Of a stretch of 64,000 nt of DNA, positions 41,319-53,555 are shown one piece after another. The stretch's first letter is position 1. The number at the start of each line of letters is the position of its first letter. The notes beneath the pieces are model-generated. The model saw only the letters and a program-made list of their open reading frames with translations. It made no database searches and had not been told where the DNA came from. The position numbers and the translations under genes were made by a program. The stretch comes from Actinoplanes octamycinicus (GTDB lineage: Bacteria > Actinomycetota > Actinomycetes > Mycobacteriales > Micromonosporaceae): contig NZ_JACHNB010000001.1 in the NCBI RefSeq assembly GCF_014205225.1, forward strand, positions 9,281,501 to 9,345,500. The letters run 5' to 3'.

Positions 41319-42062
41319 TCAGTCGTCGTCGCGACCGTGGTGACGGTCCTTGCCGCCCTTGTCGTCGCCGCCCTTGCCGCTCTTGCCGCCTTTGTCGTCG
41401 TGGCCCTTGTCGTCGGAGGCCCGGCTGCCGCCCTTGTCGTCGCCGGCTTCGGTGCTGCGGGTGCGGCTACCGCCCTTGTCGTCACCCGGCTCGGCGCTGC
41501 GGGTGCGGTTACCGCCCTTGTCATCGCCCGGCTCGGCGTGACGGGTGCGGCTACCGCCCTTGTCGTCACCCGGCTCGGCGTGACGGGTGCGGCTACCGCC
41601 CTTGTCATCGGCGCCCCGGCTCCGGCCGCCCTTGTCGTCGGCGCCCCGGCTCCGGCCACCCTTGTCATCGGCGCTGGCCGAGGCGCTCGGCGAGGCGCTC
41701 GGCGACACCCGGACCTCCGCGCCGCCCTTGATCCGGTGCCGGAGCACCGCCCCGGTGGCGCTGTCCACGTCGATGTCGTGCTCCACCCCGCCGACGATCA
41801 CGTCGACGTCCCAGACCAGCACGCCGTGCTCGGTCTCCCGCTCCACCGACTCGACCGAGCCGCCGCCGGCCGCCCGGATGGCGATCGCCTTGGCCGCTTC
41901 GACGCTGATGGCGACGGAGCTGCTGGCGTACGTCGAAGAGGACGAGGCCGAAGGCGCAGCCGAGGCCGAGAAGCCCCGGTCGCCGGCGAATGCGGCGCCG
42001 GCCGCGCCGATGACGGCGAACGCGCCGGTGGCCAGGACGATAGCGGTGCGAATCTTGAACAT
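41319..42062 (-). CDS. Secreted PepSY-domain protein with charged repeat tail
   Basis: Protein of 247 residues. Signal peptide (about 1-26, TAIVLATGAFAVIGAAGAAFA), a serine/alanine linker, then a PepSY-like domain at about 50-115 (ISVEAAKAIAIRAAGGGSVE, WDVDVIVGG, DIDVDSATGAVL). The C-terminal half is a charged tail built of 14-residue units (DDKGGSRTRHAEPG type) ending in HHGRDDD. PepSY domains are thought to restrain peptidases or act as sensor accessories. ATG at 42062 has GGAGG upstream. GTTAAG and GCTAAG, 11 bases apart, lie upstream and match the sites before the OmpR-type regulator at 23.6 kb. Confidence 0.88.
   Translation of the reverse strand: MFKIRTAIVLATGAFAVIGAAGAAFAGDRGFSASAAPSASSSSTYASSSVAISVEAAKAIAIRAAGGGSVESVERETEHGVLVWDVDVIVGGVEHDIDVDSATGAVLRHRIKGGAEVRVSPSASPSASASADDKGGRSRGADDKGGRSRGADDKGGSRTRHAEPGDDKGGSRTRHAEPGDDKGGNRTRSAEPGDDKGGSRTRSTEAGDDKGGSRASDDKGHDDKGGKSGKGGDDKGGKDRHHGRDDD
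41380..41680. repeat. In-frame repeats encoding the DDKGG tail of the PepSY protein
   Basis: Four units of 42 bases (about 41440-41610) encode DDKGGSRTRHAEPG-type blocks; shorter 30-base units beside them encode ADDKGGRSRG. The tail alternates acidic and basic residues and is expected to be disordered. Confidence 0.85.
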
Positions 42063-42133
42063 GTGTGAAACCTCCAGTCGATCCGTTGGGGAAGACCTTC
42101 GCCGCAAGATCGCTATCCGCACGCTGTCCGATC

Positions 42134-42198: not shown

Positions 42199-43281
42199 TC
42201 ACCGCCGCTCACGGCCGCCGCGCGCCACCGGCCAGCCCTCACCCCGGACCGAGACAAGCCGCACCTCCCCACCCCGCTCCACCCCGACCAGTTCCTCCCC
42301 CTCACCGGGCCGCACCTCCCACTCCGCGCCGCCCGGCTTCCTGCCCCGGCCGGGTTCCGCCTCCCGATCCGCGCCGCCCGGCGTCCCGCCCCGGCCGGCT
42401 TGCGCCTCCTGATCCCCGCCACCCGGCTTCCTGCCCCGCCCGGCTTGCGCCTCCCGATCCGCGCCGCCCGGCTTCCGGCCCCGGCCGGGCAGGACTCGGG
42501 TGACGATCGTGGACAACAGCAGCCAACCGGCCGCGACCAGGGTGATCGCCGGACCGGCCGCGACGTTCCCGTGTGCCGACGCATACAGGCCGGCCAGGCC
42601 CGCGAGGACCCCGAAGAGCACGGCCAGCACGGTGATCACCGGAAGCCGGTCGGACCAGAGGCGGGCCGCCGCGGCCGGGGCCACGATCAGCGCCACAGCC
42701 AGGAAGGTGCCCGCCGCCGGAACCGTCACGACCACCGTGACCTGCACGATGAGCAGCAACATCAGGTCCCAGAACGGCACCCTCACCCCGGCCGCCCGCG
42801 CCCCGGCCGGGTCGAACCCGCTGAACCTCAGCGGCCGGGCGAAGGCCACCAGCAGCCCGGCCACCACGATCAGCACGACCCCCGTGGTGATGAGATCGCG
42901 GTCGCCGACGGTGAGGATCGAACCGGTCAGCACGGCGGACAGGTCCTTGCCGAACCCGTTCCGGCTCGCCACCAGCGCCGCACCCAACGCGAACCCGGCG
43001 GACAGCAGCACCCCGGTCGCCGCCGTCGCCCCCTGCCCGGCGCGACGGCTGAGCGCCACCACCCCAAGGGTCACCACGGTGCCGGCCACCACCCCGCCGA
43101 CCAGGATGTTCACGCCGAGCAGCGCGGCGGCGACCACCCCCGGGAAGGTCGCGTGGGTCAACGCCATCGTGAAGAACGACAACCGCCGCACCACCACCTG
43201 CACGCCGACGACCGCCCCCAGCGTCCCGGCCAGCACCGCCTCGACCACCGCCCGATGCACCGCGTCGTCCCACCAGCTCAC
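42199..43281 (-). CDS. Zinc/manganese-type ABC importer permease 2, with repetitive tail
   Basis: Protein of 360 residues of the ZnuB/TroC family: about eight to nine hydrophobic helices (residues 10-265), with family stretches RRLSFFTMALTHATFPGV near the N-terminus, FDPAGARAAGVRVPFWDLML in the middle and VALIVAPAAAARLW. The last 95 residues are hydrophilic and begin with four 15-residue units (GRGRKPGGADREAQA type), unusual for this family of about 270 residues. GTG start overlaps the stop of permease 1 (GTGA, 43278-43281). With the upstream permease it probably forms a heterodimeric channel for zinc. Confidence 0.9.
   Translation of the reverse strand: MSWWDDAVHRAVVEAVLAGTLGAVVGVQVVVRRLSFFTMALTHATFPGVVAAALLGVNILVGGVVAGTVVTLGVVALSRRAGQGATAATGVLLSAGFALGAALVASRNGFGKDLSAVLTGSILTVGDRDLITTGVVLIVVAGLLVAFARPLRFSGFDPAGARAAGVRVPFWDLMLLLIVQVTVVVTVPAAGTFLAVALIVAPAAAARLWSDRLPVITVLAVLFGVLAGLAGLYASAHGNVAAGPAITLVAAGWLLLSTIVTRVLPGRGRKPGGADREAQAGRGRKPGGGDQEAQAGRGGTPGGADREAEPGRGRKPGGAEWEVRPGEGEELVGVERGGEVRLVSVRGEGWPVARGGRERR
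42310..42490. repeat. 45-bp in-frame repeats in permease 2 tail
   Basis: About four units encoding GRGRKPGGADREAQA, with variants GGGDQEAQA, GGADREAEP and GGAEWEV. They extend the cytoplasmic end of the permease. Confidence 0.85.
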
Positions 43282-44714
43282 GCCGTCCTCCCCGCACTCA
43301 CACCCGCCCGCCCGCCCGAACCACCGGAGGCAGCCGTCCGCCCGCCGCCGAGAGATCCGTCCTGCCCCGCACAGCCGGCAGTCCCGTCCAGCCCCGCCAC
43401 GCCCACCGGCCCGTCCGGCCCCGCGCCGCCCGCCGGTACAGGCGGTCGGCTGGCCCTCACGGGTGCCTCAGCCCCCGCGAGACACCCCTCAGCACCAGCC
43501 GAGACCCGGCAGCCAACAGCCGACCGCACGGAAACGCCTCCCGGTGCGGACGCCCGGCTGGGACTGACAGGTGCCTCCGGCCCTACGAGACACCCCTCAG
43601 CCCCAGCCGAGACCCGGCAGCCAACAGCCGACCGCACGGAAACGCCTCCCGGTGCGGACGCCCGGCTGGGACTGACAGGTGCCTCCGGCCCTACGAGACA
43701 CCCCTCAGCACCAGCCGAAACCCGGCAGCCAACAGCCGACCGCACGGAAACGCCTCCCGGTGCGGACGCCCGGCTGGGACTGACAGGTCCCTCCGGCCCT
43801 ACGAGACACCCCTCAGGACCAGCCGAGACCCGGCAGCCAACAGCCGACAGTGGGGTGGGACGGGTCTCGGCGGCGGCGGGGGCCCGGCGGAGGGCGGCGG
43901 TGGCGAGGGCGAGCAGGTAGGCGAGGACCAGGAGCAGGACGACCGTGGGGGCGGCGCCGAGTGGCACCCCGTGGTCGACCGACGCGGTCCAGCTCAGCCA
44001 CAGGCCGAGTGGGCCGGCGAGCAGGATCAGGGCGGTGCTGAGCAGGACGATCGGGATCGGGCGGGTGGACACCAGGCGGGCGGCGGCGGGCGGGACCACC
44101 AGCAGGGCGACCACCAGGATGGTGCCGACCGCCTGGACGGTGGCTACCACGACGAGGGCGACCAGGACGTTGAGCCAGAGGTCGAGCCAGGACGCGCGGT
44201 ATCCGGCGGCTGCGGCGCCGGCCGGGTCGAAGGCCCGGAAGAGGAGGGCGCGGGCGAGCATCGCGAGTCCGGCGAGGATCAGGGCGACCAGGACGGCGGT
44301 TGCGGCGACCTGGGCCGGTGACACGGTGAGCAGCCGGCCGAAGAGGAAGGCGGTCAGGTCCGCGGTGTAGGACGGCTTCCGGGACACCAGCGCCACGCCG
44401 ATCGCGAACATCGAGGTGAGCAGGACCGCCGTGGCGGCGTCGTCGGTGACGCCGCCACGGCGGGTGATCAGGGTCAGCACCACGGCGGTGAGCAGCGCGG
44501 CGGTCAGCGCGCCGGCCAGCAGCCCGGAGGCGCCGCCGGCCAGGAAGCCGATCACCACCCCGGGGAAGACGGTGTGGGTGAGCGCGTCCGCGGTGAACGA
44601 CAGCCGCCGGGCGAAGACGAAGAACCCGACCGGCCCGCACACCAGCCCGAGCAGCAGCAGTTCGGCGAGCGCCCGCCCCATGAACGGCACGGTGAAGGCG
44701 GTCACCGTCAGCAC
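43278..44714 (-). CDS. Zinc-type ABC importer permease 1, with tail encoded by the 108-bp palindromic array
   Basis: Protein of 478 residues, far longer than the family's usual 270-300. Residues 1-285 are a normal ZnuB-type permease (FMGRALAELLLLGLVCG, RRLSFTADALTHTVFPGVVI, FDPAGAAAAGYRASWLDLWL). The remaining 190 residues are translated from the 108-bp repeats and contain about three to four copies of a 36-residue unit (AVGCRVSAGAEGCLVG, then PEAPVSPSRASAPGG). The stop overlaps the start of permease 2 as GTGA (43278-43281), so translation through the array seems required for coupling. Start GTG at 44714 gives the normal N-terminus; GTG 44705 or ATG 44681 are alternatives. It overlaps the end of the ATPase gene by 7 bases. 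Confidence 0.85.
   Translation of the reverse strand: MLTVTAFTVPFMGRALAELLLLGLVCGPVGFFVFARRLSFTADALTHTVFPGVVIGFLAGGASGLLAGALTAALLTAVVLTLITRRGGVTDDAATAVLLTSMFAIGVALVSRKPSYTADLTAFLFGRLLTVSPAQVAATAVLVALILAGLAMLARALLFRAFDPAGAAAAGYRASWLDLWLNVLVALVVVATVQAVGTILVVALLVVPPAAARLVSTRPIPIVLLSTALILLAGPLGLWLSWTASVDHGVPLGAAPTVVLLLVLAYLLALATAALRRAPAAAETRPTPLSAVGCRVSAGPEGCLVGPEGPVSPSRASAPGGVSVRSAVGCRVSAGAEGCLVGPEAPVSPSRASAPGGVSVRSAVGCRVSAGAEGCLVGPEAPVSPSRASAPGGVSVRSAVGCRVSAGAEGCLAGAEAPVRASRPPVPAGGAGPDGPVGVAGLDGTAGCAGQDGSLGGGRTAASGGSGGRAGVSAGRTA
43447..43850. repeat. 108-bp tandem array of the palindromic element (about four copies), inside a permease gene
   Basis: Units start (CGGCTGG) at 43447, 43555, 43663 and 43771, exactly 108 bases apart. 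Each holds an imperfect palindrome: left arm with CTGACAGGTGCCTC (CTCACGGGTGCCTC in the first), right arm GAGACACCCCTCAG, and outer CGGCTGG/CCAGCCG. The 50-base spacer (from GACCCGGCAGCC to GTGCGGACGCC) is specific to this array. All units are in frame with the permease. Confidence 0.92.
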
Positions 44715-45652
44715 CCGCGCGCCGGACGCACGCCGGACGACCGTCCCGCTGCGGGCGCTACCGTCAACGCCCGGCCGACGGACGCGCCGGACGACTCTTC
44801 CGCTGCGCGCGCCACCGGCACCGTCCGGCCGACGGACGCGCCGGACGACTCTTCCGCTGCGCGCGCCACCGGCACCGTCCAGCTGACGGACGCGCCGGAC
44901 GACCCTTCCGCTGCGCGCGCCAGCGGCACCGTCCGGCCGACGGACGCGCCGGACGACCCGCTGGCGGCGGGGGCCACGGTCAGCACGCGGTCGGCGAAGC
45001 GCTCCGCGAGGGGCTCGTCGTGGGTGCTCAGGACCAGCGCGGCGCCGGCTGTGGTGAGTTCGGCTAGGACGGTGAGGATGGCCTGCTGGCTCTCCGCGTC
45101 GACGCCATTGAACGGCTCGTCCAGCAGCAGCAGCGACGGTTCGGCGGCGATCGCCCGGGCCAGCAGGACGCGCTGCCGCTGGCCGCCGGAGAGCAGTCCG
45201 AACCGGACGCCGGCCCGGTCGGCCAGCCCGACCCGGTCCAGCGCGGCGCGGGCGGCCCGGCGGTCGGCCGGGCGGGTGGGCCGCCACCAGCCGGTCCGCC
45301 GGTAGCGGCCCATCAGCACCACGTGGCCGGCGGTGACCGGGAAGTCCGGGTCGAGGTCGGCGGCCTGCGGGACGTAGCCACACAGGCCGCCTGCCCGGCC
45401 GGGGGAGCGGCCGAACACCTCCACCGCGCCGCCGAGCACGGCGGCGAGCCCGAGGACACTCTTGATCAGAGTGGACTTGCCGGCGCCGTTCGGACCGACC
45501 AGGGCGAGCCGTTCGCCGGCCCGCAGGTCCAGGTCCAGTCCGGTGAGGACCGCGTTACCCGGGTACCCGATCGTTGCCCGGTTGAATCGCAGGACGGGGT
45601 CACCGGGCACGGCGGGCGGGCTCGGGGCGTACCGAAAAGGGGCCGCGACCAT
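44708..45652 (-). CDS. znuC: Zinc-type ABC importer ATPase, with repetitive tail
   Basis: Protein of 314 residues. Walker A GPNGAGKSTL, Q-loop YVPQAADLD, signature LSGGQRQRVLLARA and Walker B LLLLDEPFNGVD are intact, and the family sequence ends near residue 225. A tail of about 85 residues follows, made of 18-residue units (SSGASVGRTVPVARAAEE type). ATG at 45652 shares one base with the TGA of the binding-protein gene (TGATG), so translation is coupled. Gene order lipoprotein, ATPase, permease 1, permease 2 is that of a complete importer. The symbol is by family; zinc rather than manganese is inferred from the binding protein and upstream Zur-like box. Confidence 0.9.
   Translation of the reverse strand: MVAAPFRYAPSPPAVPGDPVLRFNRATIGYPGNAVLTGLDLDLRAGERLALVGPNGAGKSTLIKSVLGLAAVLGGAVEVFGRSPGRAGGLCGYVPQAADLDPDFPVTAGHVVLMGRYRRTGWWRPTRPADRRAARAALDRVGLADRAGVRFGLLSGGQRQRVLLARAIAAEPSLLLLDEPFNGVDAESQQAILTVLAELTTAGAALVLSTHDEPLAERFADRVLTVAPAASGSSGASVGRTVPLARAAEGSSGASVSWTVPVARAAEESSGASVGRTVPVARAAEESSGASVGRALTVAPAAGRSSGVRPARGC
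44740..44990. repeat. 54-bp in-frame repeats in the ATPase tail
   Basis: About four units of 54 bases (for example CTCTTCCGCTGCGCGCGCCA at the start of the unit on the plus strand) encode SSGASVGRTVPVARAAEE-type blocks. The array ends at the ATPase stop, right next to the permease start. Confidence 0.85.
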
Positions 45653-46569
45653 CAGCGGCCGGCCAGCGCCGCGGTGATCACCTGGGTGTTGTGGCGTTCG
45701 GCGCCGAGGTAGCTGCCCTCCGGGGTGCCGGGCGCGCCGAGGCTGTCGCCGAACAGCGCGTCCTCGCCGCCGATCACCCGGACGCCGGCCTGCTCGGCGA
45801 TCGCCTCGGCGGTCTTCGGCGGCAGCGAGCTCTCGGTGAAGATGGCCTTGACGCCGGTCGCCTCGATCTTGGCGACCAGGTCGGTGAGCTGCTGGGCGGA
45901 GAGTTCCGCGGAGGTGTCCATGCTGGGGATCACCGAGCCGACGAACTGCAGCCGGTAACGGTCGACGTAGTAGCCGAAGGCGTCGTGGTCGGTGACCAGC
46001 TTGCGGTCCGCGGCGGGCAGCGCGTCGAAGGCGGCCTGGTTCTCCCGGTCCAGCTCGTCGATCTCGGCGGTGTAGGCCGCGCTGTTCTTCGCGTAGTCGG
46101 CGGCGTGCGCCGGATCGGCCGCGGCCAGGCCCTTCTCGATGTTGCCGACCATCAGCCTGGCGTTCTGCGGGTTGTGCCAGATGTGCGGGTCGTCCGGGCG
46201 CAGCGCGACGCCCCGGCTGGAGTCGACGACCGGGCCGCGGAATCCGGCCGAGGAGATCGTCGGGGCGAGCCACTCCTCCAGGCCGACGCCGTTCTCGACG
46301 ACCAGTTCGGCGTCGCTGATCGCCTTGATGTCGGCCGGGGTGGGCTCGTACTCGTGCGGGTCGACGCCGACCTTGATGAGCTGGGTGAGCGTGATGTGGT
46401 CGCCGCCGACCGCGCGGGCGAAGTCGGCGACCTCGGGGGTGGTGGCCACGACGGTGAGCCCGGTGGTCCCGGCGGCGTCGGCCTTGGCGTCGGCTTCGCC
46501 GCAGGCGGCGAGGGGGATCAGGGCCGTCGCGGCGGCGGTGAGGGCGAGGATGCGGTACCGGTGACTCAT
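45652..46569 (-). CDS. znuA: Zinc-binding lipoprotein of ABC importer (ZnuA/TroA type)
   Basis: Protein of 305 residues with a lipoprotein signal ending LAAC (C23 lipidated). The four metal ligands of the cluster A-I family can be read: H72 (DPHEYEP), H132 (HIWHNPQ), H195 (TDHDAFGYY) and D275 (LFGDSL). Three histidines plus aspartate is the zinc pattern; manganese-type proteins have glutamate at the third place. A long histidine-rich loop is absent. ATG at 46569; a Zur-like box (46584-46598) lies 15 bases upstream. First gene of the importer operon. Confidence 0.92.
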   Translation of the reverse strand: MSHRYRILALTAAATALIPLAACGEADAKADAAGTTGLTVVATTPEVADFARAVGGDHITLTQLIKVGVDPHEYEPTPADIKAISDAELVVENGVGLEEWLAPTISSAGFRGPVVDSSRGVALRPDDPHIWHNPQNARLMVGNIEKGLAAADPAHAADYAKNSAAYTAEIDELDRENQAAFDALPAADRKLVTDHDAFGYYVDRYRLQFVGSVIPSMDTSAELSAQQLTDLVAKIEATGVKAIFTESSLPPKTAEAIAEQAGVRVIGGEDALFGDSLGAPGTPEGSYLGAERHNTQVITAALAGR

Positions 46570-46583
46570 GCCCGAAAAGCTAA

Positions 46584-46598
46584 TGGGAACCATTTTCA
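46584..46598 (-). promoter_or_regulatory. Zur-like box before the zinc importer operon
   Basis: Read on the minus strand: TGAAAATGGTTCCCA. It resembles the TGAAAA-N3-TTTTCA type of actinobacterial Zur sites and shares 11 of 15 bases with the box at 47399-47413. It lies just before the binding-protein start, consistent with repression when zinc is sufficient. Confidence 0.65.
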
Positions 46599-46626
46599 AT
46601 TGTCTAATGCGTACCCGTTCATCGAT

Positions 46627-47370
46627 TCAGCGGCGGGCCGCCAGCGCCGCGTGGCGACCCTCCCGCCACAGCGCGCCGGCCTCGCGGAAGCCGGCCGCCC
46701 GGGCCACGGCCGCGTGCCAGCCCAGGTCCGCGGTGAAACCGGCGGGCGGGCGATCCCGGAAGAGGTCCGCGCGGGCGGCGAGCAGACCGACGATTTCCGG
46801 TACGGCGGTCAGCCCGCTCCACCACTGCGCCCACGCCAGCTCCGCGGCCGCCTCCCCCGGCCCGGGGTCGAGCACCCGCATCACCTCGGGCAGCCCGTCG
46901 TCGGGCATCAGGTCGGCGACCACCAGCAGGCCACCGGGCGCCAGCGCGTCCCGGGCCGCGGCGTACAGCGACCGGATCACCGCCGGCGTCAGGTAGTGCA
47001 CCGTCATCACCACGGTGACCAGGTCGTATCCGCCTCCGGCAGCGGCCGGCCAGGCGGGTGAGGTCAGGTCGGCGCGGACCACCCCGATCTCCGGTGGCAG
47101 GCCGGCCCGGGCGACTTCGAGCAGTACCGGGTCGACGTCGAGCAGGGTGACCGCGGCGTCCGGCCAGCGCCCGGCCATCCGCTCGGCGAACACTCCGGGA
47201 CCGCCGCCGAGGTCGAGCACCCGGGCCGGCGGGGCGCCGCGGACCGCCTCGACGGCGGTGGCGATGACCCGTTCCAGGGCGGGCAGGCCCGGGACGAAGC
47301 CGAGCATCATCGCGTCCCAGGCGGCCCGCCAGCCGGCGACACGGGCGGGGTCGAGGGCGATCGGCGTCAT
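46627..47370 (-). CDS. Class I SAM-dependent methyltransferase with its own Zur-like box
   Basis: Protein of 247 residues. SAM-binding motif I VLDLGGGPGVFAERM near residues 51-65, an acidic motif II (TLLDVDPVLLE) and motif VVADLMPDDG later. The substrate type resembles small-molecule O- or C-methyltransferases; target unknown. It stands between the zinc importer operon and the PLP-enzyme operon, same strand, and has the best Zur-like box of the region 29 bases upstream (47399-47413). Zinc control of a methyltransferase is unusual and suggests a role in making or modifying a metal ligand, or a zinc-free replacement enzyme. Confidence 0.88.
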   Translation of the reverse strand: MTPIALDPARVAGWRAAWDAMMLGFVPGLPALERVIATAVEAVRGAPPARVLDLGGGPGVFAERMAGRWPDAAVTLLDVDPVLLEVARAGLPPEIGVVRADLTSPAWPAAAGGGYDLVTVVMTVHYLTPAVIRSLYAAARDALAPGGLLVVADLMPDDGLPEVMRVLDPGPGEAAAELAWAQWWSGLTAVPEIVGLLAARADLFRDRPPAGFTADLGWHAAVARAAGFREAGALWREGRHAALAARR

Positions 47371-47398
47371 GACGGCTGCTTTCGTGACGGCACGGAAA

Positions 47399-47413
47399 TG
47401 ACAACCGTTTTTA
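47399..47413 (-). promoter_or_regulatory. Zur-like box before the methyltransferase gene
   Basis: Read on the minus strand: TAAAAACGGTTGTCA, close to a TGAAAACGGTTTTCA palindrome (13 of 15 positions). It lies 29 bases before the methyltransferase start and after the end of the PLP operon. Confidence 0.7.
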
Positions 47414-47431
47414 ACAGACCCCGGTTGCGCG

Positions 47432-48604
47432 TCAGCCGGAATTCAGGTCCGCGAGTCGCTCCAGCAGGCGGTCGATCTCCTGGACGGTGTTGTAGGCGTG
47501 CAGGCTCACCCGTACCGAAGAGGCTTTCTCGCCCTGATCGCCCTGGCAGTGACCGTCGGAGCGGACCAGCAGGCCGTCCGCGGCCAGGATGAAGCCGAGA
47601 TCGGCGGAGCCGATCTCGCGGTGCCGGAAGGTGACGATGCCCTGCCGGCGCTGGACGTCGGAGGCGGCCGCGAGGCTGTGCTGACAGCCGAGGACCTGGT
47701 AGGCGCCGAGACCGGACAGGCCGTCGGTGAGCCGCGCGCCGAGCTCCCGGGTCCAGTCCGCGATCCGGTCCACGCCGGCCGCGTCCAGCCAGTCCAGGGC
47801 GGCGACCAGGCTGACGATCCCGCTGGTGTTCGGGGTGCCCGGCCAGCCGGCCGGGACGTACTCCGGGCCACGCTGGTTGCGGGCCCAGACCGCGCCGGTG
47901 CCGGGCAGGGCCATCGCCTTGTGCCCGGAGAAGACCAGGAAGTCGACGTCCAGGCCGGCGACCGAGATCGGCAGGTGGCCGACGCTCTGCGCGGCGTCCA
48001 GGCAGATCGGCACGTCCGGGCCGGCGGCGGCGCGCAGCCGGGACACGTGCATGTCGTTGCCGTAGACGTGGTGCACGTGGGTGGCCGCGATCAGCCTGGT
48101 CCGCGGGGTGACCAGGGCGGCGAGCCGGGCGGTGTCGTAGTCGTGGGCGGCGTCGTAGGGCATGGCACGCAGGGTGACCTGCACGCCACGGGCGCGGGCC
48201 AGGGCGGCGGCCTCGTGCCAGGGGACGATGTTGGCGTTGTGGTCGGCGTACGGCACCACGATCTCGTCGCCGTCGCGCAGCTGCGGGGCCAGCCAGTCGC
48301 GGGCGACCGCGCGCAGCCCCTCGGTGGCGCCGCTGACGAAGTGGACGCCGGAGCGGGCCGGGACCGGGTCGCCGAGGAAGGCGCGGACCCGGTCCCGGGC
48401 CTGCTCGACCCGAGCCGTGGTGCGGTTGGCCCACGGGTACGTACCCCGGGCGGCGTTCGCGTTCTCGCTGGTCAGGTACTCCATGACGGCGGTCAGGACG
48501 GGTTGTGGCTTCTGTGCGGTGGCGGCGCTGTCCAGGTAGGCGATGTCCGGGTGCGCGGCCACGATCGGGAACTGGGCGCGCAGCTCGCGTTGCCAGTCGG
48601 TCAT
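47432..48604 (-). CDS. SufS-like class V aminotransferase / cysteine desulfurase
   Basis: Protein of 390 residues. N-terminal LDSAATAQKPQPV, the cofactor stretch DHNANIVPWH (123-132), CLDAAQSVGH (201-210) with the PLP aspartate, and the lysine K229 in FSGHKAMALPGTG are those of SufS/CsdA. The active-site cysteine position is kept as C353 (RSDGHCQG), followed by VRVSLHAYNT with the substrate arginine. It can therefore remove sulfur from cysteine and carry a persulfide. No suf genes are nearby; instead it is coupled by ATGA (48601-48604) to a cysteine synthase-rhodanese fusion, suggesting a specialised sulfur route rather than Fe-S assembly. Confidence 0.9.
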   Translation of the reverse strand: MTDWQRELRAQFPIVAAHPDIAYLDSAATAQKPQPVLTAVMEYLTSENANAARGTYPWANRTTARVEQARDRVRAFLGDPVPARSGVHFVSGATEGLRAVARDWLAPQLRDGDEIVVPYADHNANIVPWHEAAALARARGVQVTLRAMPYDAAHDYDTARLAALVTPRTRLIAATHVHHVYGNDMHVSRLRAAAGPDVPICLDAAQSVGHLPISVAGLDVDFLVFSGHKAMALPGTGAVWARNQRGPEYVPAGWPGTPNTSGIVSLVAALDWLDAAGVDRIADWTRELGARLTDGLSGLGAYQVLGCQHSLAAASDVQRRQGIVTFRHREIGSADLGFILAADGLLVRSDGHCQGDQGEKASSVRVSLHAYNTVQEIDRLLERLADLNSG

Positions 48605-49914
48605 CGGACCAGCTCGAGTCCGGCGTCGCGCCAGGCGATGATCCCGCCGGTCAGCGACTGCACGTCGGGGTGACCCATCCGGCGCAGCAGGGCGGCGAAC
48701 CGGGCCGACTTCTCCCCCACCGGGCAGACCAGCAGCACCGGGCGGTGCCGGCTGACCGGCAGGCCGGCGTGCAGCAGGTCGGCGAAGACCTCGTCGACGA
48801 TGTTGACCGAGCCGGGGATGTGCAGCGCCTGGAACGCGTACGGGCTGCGCAGGTCGACCACCAGCGCGTTGGTCGAGGCGATCCAGCACTGGGCGGCGCG
48901 GGCGTCGAGGACCGGGGCGGCGGCCAGCTCGGCGTCGGTCAGGGTGCCGGTGGCGTTGCGCCGGGGCGGGCGGCCGAACAGCTCGGGGCGGCGCTCCCGG
49001 ACGTACGAAAGGTAGCTCTCCAGCCGGTCGCAGACGATGAACACGGCGGTCTTCCGGCTGGTCAGCTCGGCGTCGACGGTACGCAACCGGCGGACCGCGC
49101 CGGCGAACGCCCCGCCGCCGGTCGGCCCGGTCAGGATCCCGCACCGGCGGACCAGCGTGAGCAGTCCGTCGATCGCCTCGTCCGCGCTGACCGTCTCGAC
49201 GGCGTCGTAGACGCCCGGGTCGAAGAGGCCGACCTGCTGCACCTCGTCGATGGTCCGGATCCCCGGGATGAAGTCGCTCTTCGCGGCGACCAGCCCGACC
49301 ACCTCGACGTCCGGGTCGTGCTGGCGCAGCGCCCGGGCCACCCCGGTGGACGAGCCGGCGGTGCCGACACAGGCCACGAAGTAGTCCGGGGCGCGGCCGT
49401 CCAGATCCTTGATGATCTCCGGCCCGGTGCCGTGCAGGTGGGCCTCCACATTGCGCTCGTTGAAGTACTGGTCGGTGTGCAGGTACCGCCCGCCGGAGGT
49501 GGCGAGCTGCTGGTGCATCCGGGTGAGCGGGTCCTCGGTGTCGGTCGGGTCGAGGCACTCGGACTGGCCGGGCAGCTCGTCGATCTCCGCGCCGAGCAGC
49601 AGCAACAGCTCCTTGATCTCGGGCACCTTCATCCGGTTCGTGACGCTCTTGAACGGCAGCCCGTGCATCCCGGCGAGCAGCGCCAGCGCCTTGGCGGTGT
49701 TGCCGCTGGACAACTCGACCAGGGTGGCGCCGGCCGGGGCGCCGGCCAGCAGCGGGCGGGCCATCTGCCAGGCGGCCCGGTCCTTGACCGAGCCGAACGG
49801 GTTGAGCATCTCCAGCTTGGCGTAGAGGTCGATGTGGCGCAGGCCGTGCACGGCCGGGTCGATCCGCACGAGCGGGGTGTTGCCGATCGCCTCGGTGATG
49901 TCGTCGTGTCTCAT
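48601..49914 (-). CDS. Cysteine synthase-family enzyme fused to a C-terminal rhodanese domain
   Basis: Protein of 437 residues. Residues 1-315: PLP enzyme of the CysK/CysM/SbnA group, with NPFGSVKDR (lysine K44), LSSGNTAK (67-74) and GPTGGGAF (263-270) for phosphate binding. Residues about 325-437: rhodanese domain (VVDLRSPYAFQALHIPGS, active cysteine C397 in VCPVGEKSARF, end LTGGIIAWRDAG). The first part should make a beta-substituted alanine from activated serine; the second can carry sulfane sulfur. ATG at 49914 overlaps the upstream decarboxylase stop (ATGA). It recalls SbnA of staphyloferrin B synthesis, but no SbnB-like dehydrogenase is present. Confidence 0.9.
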   Translation of the reverse strand: MRHDDITEAIGNTPLVRIDPAVHGLRHIDLYAKLEMLNPFGSVKDRAAWQMARPLLAGAPAGATLVELSSGNTAKALALLAGMHGLPFKSVTNRMKVPEIKELLLLLGAEIDELPGQSECLDPTDTEDPLTRMHQQLATSGGRYLHTDQYFNERNVEAHLHGTGPEIIKDLDGRAPDYFVACVGTAGSSTGVARALRQHDPDVEVVGLVAAKSDFIPGIRTIDEVQQVGLFDPGVYDAVETVSADEAIDGLLTLVRRCGILTGPTGGGAFAGAVRRLRTVDAELTSRKTAVFIVCDRLESYLSYVRERRPELFGRPPRRNATGTLTDAELAAAPVLDARAAQCWIASTNALVVDLRSPYAFQALHIPGSVNIVDEVFADLLHAGLPVSRHRPVLLVCPVGEKSARFAALLRRMGHPDVQSLTGGIIAWRDAGLELVR

Positions 49915-51356
49915 GGGGTCTCCTGCCGGGGGTGGACAGGCCAGTACTGCTCGTCGAGGCACCACCGGCGGACGCCGCCGGACCGGTAGACCGCGACCTT
50001 GCGGGCCATCGGCTGGTGCAGGGCGTTGGTGGCGCTGAAGTCCATGAAGTAGCCGGCCGTGTTGACGAAGGCGAGCAGGTCGCCGGGGCGGGGCACGACC
50101 GGCAGGAACACCTTGCGGCGGGTGATCAGGTCGGCCTCCAGGCAGAGGTTGCCGAGCAGGTGGACGCCGGCCGGCCCGGCCCGCCGATCACCGGTGCGGC
50201 GGTCTTCCACGCGCGGGATCACCACCGGGTCCATCTGGACGCCGTGCTCTTCCAGGCTGACGTCGCGGGCGTTGAGATCCAGGCGGACCTCTTCTCCGGT
50301 GACCGACAGCACGCGCGTCAGGATCAGGCCGCACTGGTCCAGCAGCGCGCGGCCCGGTTCGACGTCCAGGTCGTACATGTGGTCCAGCAGCAGCTCGCCG
50401 AGAGCCCGGCCGCGCTCCGGGGCGGGGGTGCCGAGCAGGCGGTCCAGGTAGGCCGCCCCGGCCACCGGCCGATATGACGGATACAGCGCGAGATTTCCGC
50501 GCAGGGTGCCGGTCTCGGCGCGCAGGCCGTACCCGTGCCCCTCCCAGGTCAGCGCCGGCCGCCGCCCGAGCACGGCCTGACCCAGTTCGGTCGTCCACCG
50601 CTCCCACTCGGCGCCGTCGGCCAGGTAGTTCACGCCGAAGCCGCCACCGATGTCGAGCGAGCGCGGCCGCAGCCCGCGGGCCCGGCACTCGTCGAGCGCG
50701 GCCAGGCAGCTCTCCAGCGCGACCGCCTTCTCCGGCAGCTCGACGGTGTCCAGGTGGTAGGCCACGCCGGTCAGCTCGACCTGGTCGGCCCGCTTCTCCA
50801 GCAGGTCGAGCAGGTCGGTGAGCTCCCCGGCCGGGGTGCCGAAGCGGCTGCGCCGGGTCAGCACCCGGACCCCGGACGAGGCGAATCCGGACAGCCGCAG
50901 GCTGACCGGGACCCGGGGCAGCCGGTGCCCGGCCACGATGCCGGCGAGCTCGGCGAGCTCGTCCGGGGAATCGACGCTCACGGTCACCCCGGCACGGGCG
51001 GCCAGCCAGAGGAATTCGCGGTTCTTCGGCCCGGTCGCGACGATCCGGCCGGGGGTGAATCCGGCACCGAGCGCGTGTTGCAACTCGCCGAGCGAGGCCA
51101 CGTCGACACCGGCGTCACCGGCGGCGAGCTCGCGCAGGATCGCGCTGGAGCGGTTGGCCTTGTGCGCGTAGTAGAGGCGGCCGGTCAGGCGGTGACGACG
51201 ATACGTCTCGCGGAAGGCGTGCACGTTTTTCGTCACCCGCTGCGGCAGGAGGACGCCGAGCGGGGAGCCCAGCGCATCCAGCAGTTCGGCCAGGAAGTCA
51301 CGGTCGTCGAGCAGGGACTGGAGGGTCGTATCGATTTTAGGCGTCAGACTGAGCAT
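49911..51356 (-). CDS. Fold-type III PLP decarboxylase (diaminopimelate/ornithine-type)
   Basis: Protein of 481 residues. The alanine-racemase-like barrel has the lysine motif YYAHKANRS (K66), GVDVASLGEL, the phosphate loop DIGGGFGVNY near 236 and the second-domain stretch GNLCLEADLI with the conserved cysteine region, ending in AGYFMDF. This is the family of lysA-type decarboxylases but the context is not lysine synthesis. Such enzymes in siderophore clusters decarboxylate diamino acids or their conjugates (e.g. SbnH). First gene of a three-gene operon coupled by two ATGA overlaps. Good ribosome site GGGAG before ATG at 51356. Confidence 0.9.
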   Translation of the reverse strand: MLSLTPKIDTTLQSLLDDRDFLAELLDALGSPLGVLLPQRVTKNVHAFRETYRRHRLTGRLYYAHKANRSSAILRELAAGDAGVDVASLGELQHALGAGFTPGRIVATGPKNREFLWLAARAGVTVSVDSPDELAELAGIVAGHRLPRVPVSLRLSGFASSGVRVLTRRSRFGTPAGELTDLLDLLEKRADQVELTGVAYHLDTVELPEKAVALESCLAALDECRARGLRPRSLDIGGGFGVNYLADGAEWERWTTELGQAVLGRRPALTWEGHGYGLRAETGTLRGNLALYPSYRPVAGAAYLDRLLGTPAPERGRALGELLLDHMYDLDVEPGRALLDQCGLILTRVLSVTGEEVRLDLNARDVSLEEHGVQMDPVVIPRVEDRRTGDRRAGPAGVHLLGNLCLEADLITRRKVFLPVVPRPGDLLAFVNTAGYFMDFSATNALHQPMARKVAVYRSGGVRRWCLDEQYWPVHPRQETP

Positions 51357-51629
51357 CTGCGTCTCCCGATTTCACCGGCGTTTTTTCAACGTAACTGACA
51401 ACCGGATTCGTGACCAGTCCGGGATCGGGTGAATGCCGTGTCAATGGATCTGTCGGTGATTCAGCAGAATGCGCATATGAGCACGTGTTAATGGGTGCCG
51501 CCGGCCCGCCCCGCGCCTATTCACTCATCCGTTGACTGCCATTGCGGAAAAGTGCGAGGTGTCGTTCTGCCACCCGGCGTCTTCCGAAGCCGGGTTGAAA
51601 ACCGTACGTACGTCTTGTTAGATCGACGC
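51357..51629. promoter_or_regulatory. Divergent promoter region with two weak Zur-like half-sites
   Basis: Between the PLP operon and the MFS gene. Minus-strand readings CGAATCCGGTTGTCA (51396-51410) and TACGTACGGTTTTCA (51596-51610) each share 11 of 15 bases with the strong box at 47399-47413 and keep the half-site GGTTNTCA. The palindrome TACGTACGTA (51601-51612 region) lies in the second. On the MFS side TTAGAT (51618-51623) ends 6 bases before the ATG, suggesting a leaderless message. Confidence 0.45.
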
Positions 51630-52832
51630 ATGCGCGTCCTCCTCCTCGCCACGCTGATCAACGCGTTCGGCAACGGCGCCTACCTGACCACCAGCGTGCT
51701 GTTCCTGACCACGGTCGCCGGGCTCAGCCCCGCGATGATCGCGATCGGACTCAGCGCCGGGGCCGGGGCCGGCGTGCTGTCCACCACCCCGCTCGGCTAC
51801 CTCGCCGACCGGTACGGCCCGAAACGACTGTCCATCCTGGCCGTGCTGGTGCTCGCGGGCGCCTACACGGCCCTGCTCACGGTGCACTCGGCGGTGCCGT
51901 TCGTGCTGCTCTCCTGTGTGATCGCGGTGGCCACCGCGCTGGCCAAGGGCGCCAACGGGGCGCTCGCCGCCGGGGTGGTGCCGGCCGCCGAGCGGCTCCG
52001 GATGCGCGCCAGGATGCGGAGCCTGACCAATGCCGGCATGGGCTTGGGCACGCTGGCCGGGAGCGTGCCGCTGCTGGTCCAGGGGGATGTCGCGTACGTC
52101 GTGATCCTGCTCGTCAACGCGATGACGTTCCTGGTCGCGGCCCTGCTGCTGACCCGCGCCCCGCAGGTCGCCCGGCAGACCACGCCAGCCGGCGGACCGC
52201 GCCTGGTGGCGTTGCGGGACCGGGCGTTCCTCGGCTTCGCGGCCCTCGACGGGCTGCTCACCAGCACCTACAACGACCTGCTCGGGCTCGGCCTGCCGCT
52301 GTGGCTGGCCACCGGAGCGCACGCCCCGCTCTGGCTGATCTCGGTCACCCTGGTGATCAACACGGCCGGCTGCGTGCTGCTGCAGGTGCGGATGGCCCGC
52401 GACGTGTCCGGGCTGGCCGCGGCCCGCCGGTCCGCGGTGCGCGGCAGCGTGGTGATCGCGGCGGCCTGCGCGGTGATCGCGGCCGGCGCCGGCCGGTCAC
52501 CGTGGCTGGCCGGGACGCTGATCGCGGTGGCCGCGGTGATCCACGTGCTCGGCGAGGTGCAGCTGTCCACCGGCAGCTGGGGCATCGTCTTCGAGCTGGC
52601 GCCGACCTGGGCGCAGGGCCAGTACCAGGGCGCCTACTTCGCCGGCCGCGGCCTGGGCGACATGGTCGCGCCGCCGCTGGTCACCGCGTGCGTGCTCGGC
52701 CTGCACACCTACGGCTGGCTCCTGCTCGGCGCCTTCTTCGCCCTCGGCGGCCTCCTCTACGGCCCGGTCACCCGCTGGGCCGCCCGCACCCGCCCCGCCG
52801 GCCACCCCACCCCCGCCCCCTCCCTCATCTGA
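51630..52832 (+). CDS. MFS transporter, probable exporter for the divergent PLP operon product
   Basis: Protein of 400 residues with about 12 membrane helices. The loop between helices 2 and 3 reads YLADRYGPKRLS (MFS motif A), and PAAERLRMRARMRSLTNAG lies in the central loop region. Small-siderophore exporters such as SbnD have this size and type. Starts at ATG 51630; a TATA-like TTAGAT ends 6 bases upstream. Divergent from the decarboxylase gene, with weak Zur-like half-sites between them. Followed directly by the six-copy palindromic array. Function as exporter is inferred from context. Confidence 0.88.
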   Translation: MRVLLLATLINAFGNGAYLTTSVLFLTTVAGLSPAMIAIGLSAGAGAGVLSTTPLGYLADRYGPKRLSILAVLVLAGAYTALLTVHSAVPFVLLSCVIAVATALAKGANGALAAGVVPAAERLRMRARMRSLTNAGMGLGTLAGSVPLLVQGDVAYVVILLVNAMTFLVAALLLTRAPQVARQTTPAGGPRLVALRDRAFLGFAALDGLLTSTYNDLLGLGLPLWLATGAHAPLWLISVTLVINTAGCVLLQVRMARDVSGLAAARRSAVRGSVVIAAACAVIAAGAGRSPWLAGTLIAVAAVIHVLGEVQLSTGSWGIVFELAPTWAQGQYQGAYFAGRGLGDMVAPPLVTACVLGLHTYGWLLLGAFFALGGLLYGPVTRWAARTRPAGHPTPAPSLI

Positions 52833-53555
52833 CCGCCCCCTCCCCGCCGTCGCGGGCACGCGAGGTAGGCCCGGCCCCAGGCAGTCCCGCGCCTCACGGT
52901 TCCCCGGCTGTGCCTCACGGGTGTCTCAGGGCCGTCGAGACACCCGTGAGAGCCAGCCCAACCACCGCAAGCCGCGCCGCAACCCGGACCACAACGCGCC
53001 TCGCGGGTTCCCGGGCTGGGCCTCACGGGTGCCTCAGGGCCATCGAGACACCCGTGAGAGCCAGCCCAACCACCGCAAGCCGCGCCGCAACCCGGACCAC
53101 AACGCGCCTCGCGGGTTCCCGGGCTGGGCCTCACGGGTGCCTCAGGGCCATCGAGACACCCGTGAGAGCCAGCCCAACCACCGCAAGCCGCGCCGCAACC
53201 CGGACCACAACGCGCCTCACGGTTCCCCGGGCTGGGCCTCACGGGTGCCTCAGGGCCATCGAGACACCCGTGAGAGCCAGCCCAACCACCGCAAGCCGCG
53301 CCGCAACCCGGACCACAACGCGCCTCACGGTTCCCCGGGCTGGGCCTCACGGGTGCCTCAGGGCCATCGAGACACCCGTGAGAGCCAGCCCAACCACCGC
53401 AAGCCGCGCCGCAACCCGGACCACAACGCGCCTCACGGTTCCCCGGGCTGGGCCTCACGGGTGCCTCAGGGCCGTCGAGACACCCGTGGGGGCCAGCCGC
53501 ACTACCGTGAGCGGCGCTGCGGTCTGGGGACGGGCGGGTCTGGCGTACCGGAGGG
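52833..53555. other. Non-coding region between convergent MFS and pectinesterase genes
   Basis: About 720 bases, almost all taken by the 108-bp palindromic array. Open frames run through it on both strands because the unit is a multiple of three and has no stop codons, but there is no start/ribosome site context, no domain and the products are pure repeats. Confidence 0.75.
52889..53517. repeat. 108-bp tandem array of the palindromic element (six copies)
   Basis: CCTCACGGGTG starts at 52913, 53021, 53129, 53237, 53345 and 53453, always 108 bases apart. Each unit has left arm GGCTGG-CTCACGGGTG-CTC and right arm GAG-CACCCGTGAG-CCAGCC. The spacer (ACCACCGCAAGCCGCGCC to CACAACGCGCCTC) differs from that at 43.4 kb, so the arrays arose separately from the same palindrome. 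Two spacer variants (GCGGGTTCCC and ACGGTTCCCCG) occur in blocks. As it lies between convergent genes it can act as a multiple terminator. Confidence 0.93.

Follow-up and report, generated by a model that had tools for sequence, protein, structure and literature searches.

A putative Zur-controlled zinc-acquisition locus with three coupled pyridoxal-phosphate enzymes in Actinoplanes octamycinicus

Few chemical classes of zinc-scavenging molecules are known, and a biosynthetic core that carries zinc boxes and an unusual set of enzymes would add one. Here we describe a candidate for such a core in Actinoplanes octamycinicus. It lies in a window of 64,000 nucleotides (positions 9281501-9345500 of a single 10.28-Mb contig; coordinates below are those of the window), and its closest named relatives are Actinoplanes species. 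Three genes for pyridoxal 5'-phosphate (PLP) enzymes, namely a decarboxylase, a cysteine synthase-rhodanese fusion and a SufS-like protein (together the triad), stand with a methyltransferase gene, a ZnuABC-type ATP-binding cassette (ABC) importer and a divergent gene of the major facilitator superfamily (MFS). We consider it probable that this is a Zur-controlled zinc-acquisition locus, in which the importer is coupled to a pathway that makes and exports a small zinc ligand, or zincophore.

Comparison with described metallophore systems

Staphyloferrin B biosynthesis offers three likenesses: the locus has an SbnA-like cysteine synthase, an SbnH-like group III decarboxylase and an SbnD-like MFS exporter. 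Unlike that system, it has SufS-like and rhodanese parts added and a zinc context instead of an iron one. Ornithine cyclodeaminases of the SbnB type (PF02423) had no match in the whole genome, with 8 of 14 control genomes positive, and for this reason staphyloferrin B chemistry does not fit; an SbnA/SbnB route to diaminopropionate, in cis or in trans, is unlikely. Synthetases of the non-ribosomal-peptide-synthetase-independent siderophore (NIS) type (PF04183) were matched only at 6.59 and 6.72 Mb, which is 2.6-2.7 Mb from the window, and none stands at the locus. An earlier sequence-only reading of this DNA had called SbnB and the NIS synthetases absent; the first is borne out for the genome, and the second is true of the locus but not of the two distant regions. 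The fusion protein scores 142 bits against the SbnA model TIGR03945 (cut-off 349.95) and higher, 161-166 bits, against cysM. Membership in the staphyloferrin B class was rejected on the SbnA score, the missing SbnB and the distant NIS synthetases.

In actinobacteria, the metallophore [S,S]-ethylenediaminedisuccinate (EDDS) of Amycolatopsis japonicum is under Zur control according to PMC6103462 and PMC4993170, and one Rhodococcus aminopolycarboxylate cluster is listed in PMC13206832 with a cysteine synthase, a diaminopimelate decarboxylase and an ornithine cyclodeaminase. Our locus shares the probable Zur control with the former and the first two enzymes with the latter. Both speak for an alternative in which the product is an aminopolycarboxylate resembling EDDS or marasmine: the PALP (cysteine synthase) domain would join an activated serine with an amino acid to give an N-substituted diaminopropionate, the decarboxylase would turn this into an ethylenediamine unit, and the SufS-like and rhodanese parts would only recycle or scavenge sulfide. 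The partial match to the SbnA model agrees with this, but the score stays far below its cut-off and under that of cysM. Judged by the Rhodococcus list, the third gene of the set was not found in the genome, and the gene set was rejected on that ground; the sulfur-transfer enzymes are a further difference. The alternative also leaves the conserved catalytic cysteines of two sulfur-transfer domains unexplained, and we regard it as unlikely.

Opine-like zincophores (staphylopine, pseudopaline) leave the cell by MFS export. They resemble the proposed system in capturing zinc with a small molecule, and oligopeptide or FecCD importers adjoin their clusters (PMC7438024); the same importer types stand beside the triad in other loci. 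Neither an opine dehydrogenase nor a nicotianamine-synthase-like family was found among the nine window proteins scanned, the rest of the genome not having been searched. In Sinorhizobium fredii, y4xP encodes a cysteine synthase beside y4yA (PMC3973906), and many relatives of the window decarboxylase bear the NCBI name "Y4yA family". Unlike the triad, the y4yA-y4xP pair belongs to a type III secretion region with a role called "enigmatic", and the accessible part of that source mentions neither a SufS-like gene nor a zinc context. In the open literature (subscription papers and preprints being outside the scope), no description of the triad gene set was found, and PMC4603692 has no mention of zinc, siderophore, cysteine synthase, decarboxylase, metallophore or CocE.

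Zur-type boxes in the window, the genome and related loci

The sequence-only reading had placed four Zur-like 15-mers in the locus, and all four are present at their positions. For counting, we used a degenerate palindrome, TGRNAAYSRTTNYCA, written by us after viewing the window sites and from an actinobacterial consensus, with the reversed pattern as control. It has three perfect places in the 10.28-Mb genome, all at zinc-type genes. The first is the importer box at 46584..46598. The second precedes a second znuA gene (PF01297), with an ABC ATPase gene and a permease-like gene behind it on the same strand. The third lies in the gap between an L28-like gene (judged by eye) and a gene for a COG0523/CobW GTPase, a pair typical of zinc starvation. 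The earlier reading would have lost ground if such boxes were not enriched at other zinc genes, and both other perfect places do lie at zinc genes. The pattern TGATANNNTATCA occurs at no place in the genome. With up to one mismatch there are 24 places, the perfect ones included, versus 16 for the reversed pattern, so a lone one-mismatch match weighs little in this genome. The methyltransferase box at 47399..47413 carries one mismatch and such places are common by chance; its weight therefore rests on position and conservation.

In a search for relatives, 65 loci were returned, of which the 56 with at least 66% identity were kept; the remaining nine (L057-L065, 31-36%) enter no count. These 56 close loci (1.16 Mb) hold 30 perfect sites and none for the reversed pattern. 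In 17 genomes, chosen by way of 18 loci picked by hand and without that of L034, the counts were 83 perfect sites versus 2 for the reversed pattern. For scoring, a matrix was made from 55 training sites, taken by hand among the listed cross-genome sites (those of G200 not included) together with two other sites of the own genome. A stricter matrix of 46 sites omitted the nine strings that also occur as triad-cluster sites, two of them identical to the window importer site and at least one to a methyltransferase site. With both matrices the importer box ranked first and the methyltransferase box second in the 64 kb (24.7 and 20.7 bits; 24.4 and 20.9 bits with the stricter set), and none of 2000 single-base shuffles of their own intergenic gaps reached either score. 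In these two cases, the boxes of the sequence-only reading thus proved to lie well above chance.

The weaker pair fared differently. The site before the decarboxylase (51396..51410) has 4.1 bits and the 15-mer before the exporter (51596..51610) has 4.7 bits, and their scores were matched by 196 and 151 of 2000 gap shuffles (225 and 173 in a repeat), for which reason both were rejected as stand-alone evidence. At the position of the former, two relatives have a far better site (20.4 bits in L001 and 19.3 in L003). The exporter box is unsupported, since its half-site is broken (TTTGCA) in three relatives (L003, L011 and L056).

In an alignment of the window with four relatives (L001, L003, L011, L056), the methyltransferase box falls at the same place in all five. 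A site with at most one mismatch was found upstream of the methyltransferase gene in 20 of the 56 loci (16 perfect, four with one mismatch), and a further perfect site stands at this position in L023, where the gene was called short and the locus is outside that count. Upstream of the decarboxylase gene, such sites are found in eight loci (L001, L003, L039, L040, L041, L042, L047 and L055), the sole perfect one being that of L055, 357 bp upstream. Two loci not among the 56 add to this: in L145, the 145 bp that separate the decarboxylase gene from a divergent ZigA-like gene contain a perfect box, and L143 has a one-mismatch site 104 bp ahead of the decarboxylase gene. In L148, a perfect box separates the methyltransferase gene from an L28-like gene, after which come L31-like and COG0523-like genes. 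If every site that lies no more than 400 bp ahead of a decarboxylase, methyltransferase, znuA-type or adjacent peptide importer gene is taken as a triad-cluster site, 32 of the 56 loci have one with at most one mismatch (17 a perfect one); the reversed pattern gave none. By sequence, then, the importer and methyltransferase promoters carry the palindrome expected of a Zur regulon, and zinc regulation of the locus is supported. The link to zinc, which the earlier reading had offered as inference, has become strong.

Genes of the locus and their conservation with zinc genes

The three PLP genes lie on the reverse strand and overlap by 4 bp at each junction. The first encodes a group III decarboxylase with the fold of diaminopimelate and ornithine decarboxylases (49911..51356; ornithine/arginine/diaminopimelate type, PF02784, 1e-26), the second the fusion (48601..49914; PF00291 and PF00581), and the third the SufS-like cysteine desulfurase homologue, a class-V aminotransferase (47432..48604; PF00266). 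Downstream on the same strand follow the S-adenosylmethionine-dependent methyltransferase (46627..47370; PF13649) and the importer, made up of a ZnuA-type binding protein (45652..46569, with its ATG at 46569; PF01297, 4.5e-80), an ATPase (44708..45652; PF00005) and two ABC-3 permeases (43278..44714 and 42199..43281; PF00950). The MFS transporter, a probable exporter, is encoded divergently on the forward strand (51630..52832; PF07690, 1.7e-19). Start codons are our own choice. Pfam confirms every gene class given by the sequence-only reading, and all three importer families exceed their cut-offs, which makes the importer one of the ZnuABC type; the NCBIfam AztABC models score its proteins under their cut-offs.

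Lys44 of the PALP domain, Cys397 of the rhodanese domain (in CPVGEKS) and Lys229 and Cys353 of the SufS-like protein are conserved across the family, including the distant L140 (40-48% identity). We take Lys44 to bind PLP, Cys397 to be the rhodanese cysteine, and the SufS-like residues to be the catalytic cysteine, the PLP lysine and carboxylate-binding arginines. In 11 aligned SufS-like sequences Cys353, Lys229, Arg348 and Arg365 are invariant, as expected of SufS; ten of the proteins are about 20 residues shorter than that of L140, just before the GTPNT motif. Against the NCBIfam sufS model the protein has 257.8 bits, under the cut-off of 475.1. Its structure model (mean predicted local distance difference test score, pLDDT, 83) finds SufS structures at a template-modelling (TM) score of about 0.8, and the decarboxylase model (mean pLDDT 80) has its best matches in diaminopimelate decarboxylases and BtrK, with about 0.65. 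The fold searches only echoed the sequence-level families.

The triad recurs in the 56 close loci. It is worth noting that genes were called there with our own composition-based script, which may overlook genes that are small or unusual, and that miscalls occurred (a methyltransferase called too short in L023, and some Streptomyces operon genes missed or short in L033 and L048). The SufS-like gene follows the fusion in all 56, and a decarboxylase was called before it in 55 (none in L022). A methyltransferase homologue was called in 43. An MFS gene divergent from the decarboxylase is also found in L001, L003, L011 and L056.

Among 200 genomes at the level of the family Micromonosporaceae, 28 have the fusion protein (29 places, that of the window counted), and the fusion or triad is also found in several other actinobacterial families. 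Many more of these 29 triads than expected have a PF01297 gene close by: 10 triads at a distance of up to 5 kb (expected 0.08), 11 at up to 10 kb (0.16) and 13 at up to 20 kb (0.33), figures that give no clean probability because related genomes are not independent. A PF01297 search over genomes picked partly for their zinc neighbours was kept out of these statistics, except for its G000 positions. In 27 of the 56 loci, the stretch examined has at least one zinc-type gene, the families being tested on representatives: 13 loci have a znuA-type gene, 10 a Fur-family regulator, six ribosomal protein paralogues and nine a COG0523 gene. The regulator scores 47 bits against an NCBIfam Zur cut-off of 167, and with a score so far below it can only be called a Fur-superfamily protein. 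When genes and sites are counted together, 41 of the 56 loci show at least one of the two.

These counts bear on the explanation that the triad serves ordinary sulfur amino-acid metabolism and stands beside zinc genes by chance. The loci with neither gene nor site are in its favour. However, the znuA proximity, the perfect sites in the 17 genomes and the upstream sites in 32 loci are hard to reconcile with it, and separate genera show the association with zinc genes of different kinds. In a quick tree built from 59 fusion proteins, 13 changes are needed to explain the zinc label; the label is clustered (one of 500 shuffles was as low) and does not form a single block. We consider chance very improbable. 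The 17 kb upstream of L037 (L138) hold a zinc-starvation island, in which four perfect Zur-type boxes occur together with ribosomal protein paralogues, genes of an ABC zinc importer and a gene for a His-rich protein, the gene classes being judged by eye.

A possible sulfur relay and its variants in other genera

The route that we favour begins with a drop in zinc, upon which Zur would leave the boxes of the importer and methyltransferase promoters. The SufS-like enzyme would move the sulfur of cysteine as a persulfide on Cys353 to the rhodanese Cys397 of the fusion, and the PALP domain would build it into a thiol amino acid by beta-replacement, with an activated serine-like compound as substrate. 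The relay into the PALP domain is proposed because the catalytic cysteines and lysines are conserved, L140 included, and because of the structure-model matches. The decarboxylase would then strip the carboxylate from the thiol amino acid, the methyltransferase would complete the molecule, the MFS protein would export it, and the importer would bring back zinc or the complex. The small cysteine- or diamino-acid-derived metal ligand of the sequence-only reading is thus plausible, and a ligand of this kind is the product we favour.

Several points weigh against this reading. Sulfur taken from cysteine would serve no purpose if it only gave cysteine again, so the acceptor must be a different one. 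In the window, the site at the triad's own promoter is only at chance level. The window-type MFS gene stands beside the triad in only 4 of the 56 loci, and 15 of the 56 have neither a zinc gene nor a zinc site. The earlier reading would have been weakened by a triad elsewhere with no zinc genes and another clear role; the former is the case in these 15 loci, but no other clear role appeared there. Of the 27 loci with zinc genes, three rest only on a pair of Cu/Zn-efflux-like and TIGR03943 genes, and two only on the Fur-superfamily regulator. L140, a distant cousin (fusion 48%, decarboxylase 39%, SufS-like about 40% identity), has no zinc marker in 18 kb. Its triad, divergent and at L140:8368-13636, is accompanied by a 344-residue protein that ends in a heavy-metal-associated domain.

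The scarcity of the window-type exporter (most of the 56 loci have none called beside the triad) could also mean that the thiol stays in the cell, where it would buffer zinc or replace a zinc-dependent step, and some triads do have as neighbours the ribosomal protein paralogues that are typical of zinc starvation. Yet transport genes are repeatedly associated with the triad, be it MFS proteins, FecCD-type (siderophore-type) importers or oligopeptide importers, and we hold such zinc-sparing sulfur metabolism to be unlikely, a little more so than the aminopolycarboxylate.

The zincophore reading may extend to other genera, in which ATP-grasp ligases or a YcaO peptide pathway stand beside this core. 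ATP-grasp proteins follow the triad in L026, L042, L050 and L143, two of them matching a dapdiamide synthase model well under its cut-off. Oligopeptide importer genes are found in L026 (tested) and in L050 and L143 (by homology), and L055 adjoins an operon with an MFS gene and an oligopeptide-binding protein, with a perfect box at its called start.

In eight Streptomyces loci (L029-L035 and L048), a leader-binding-like gene, a YcaO gene and two ABC transporter genes stand directly upstream of the triad, with a called S15-peptidase gene in seven and a called SagB-like gene in six; in L045, YcaO, SagB-like and ABC genes lie close by on the opposite strand. The families of this operon were tested on L031, where the leader-binding and SagB matches are under the curated cut-offs and the gap ahead of the decarboxylase is 85 bp. 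Six of the loci (L031, L030, L032, L048, L033 and L035) were extended upstream, as L127 and L133-L137. All six have a perfect Zur-type box and genes for a binding protein, two permeases and an ATPase; next come a gene for a 37-residue peptide that is nearly identical among them and the gene for the leader-binding-like protein. In L127 the binding protein (PF01497) and one permease (PF01032), the two proteins run against Pfam, point to an importer of the FecCD or siderophore type. The peptide would be a candidate ribosomal precursor, and the operon (L127:4224-9472) a candidate zinc-regulated ribosomal peptide pathway, which suggests a ribosomal peptide metallophore under Zur. The peptide has no cysteine.

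A wider proposal, which we put forward tentatively, is that of a new class of actinobacterial zincophores, in which a persulfide relay and a group III decarboxylase make a sulfur-bearing ligand unit. Depending on the genus, this unit would be methylated, ligated by ATP-grasp enzymes or, in some Streptomyces, joined to a Zur-controlled ribosomal peptide, with the 37-residue product as candidate precursor, YcaO and SagB-like enzymes, and import of the FecCD type. If true, the Streptomyces version would be a zincophore of ribosomal origin.

Tandem repeats of 108, 54 and 45 bp are found in the window at 43447-43848, 44703-44959, 42315-42488 and 52888-53498. They lengthen the C-termini of three importer proteins, giving repetitive tails to the ATPase, to the permease at 43278..44714 (a long one, with the 108-bp repeat) and to the second permease (45-bp repeat), so that the two permeases and the ATPase have 478, 360 and 314 residues, compared with about 295, 279 and 251 in relatives. 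A 108-bp array sits after the exporter gene, and an open reading frame at 41319-42122, rich in DDKGG repeats, adjoins the importer operon.

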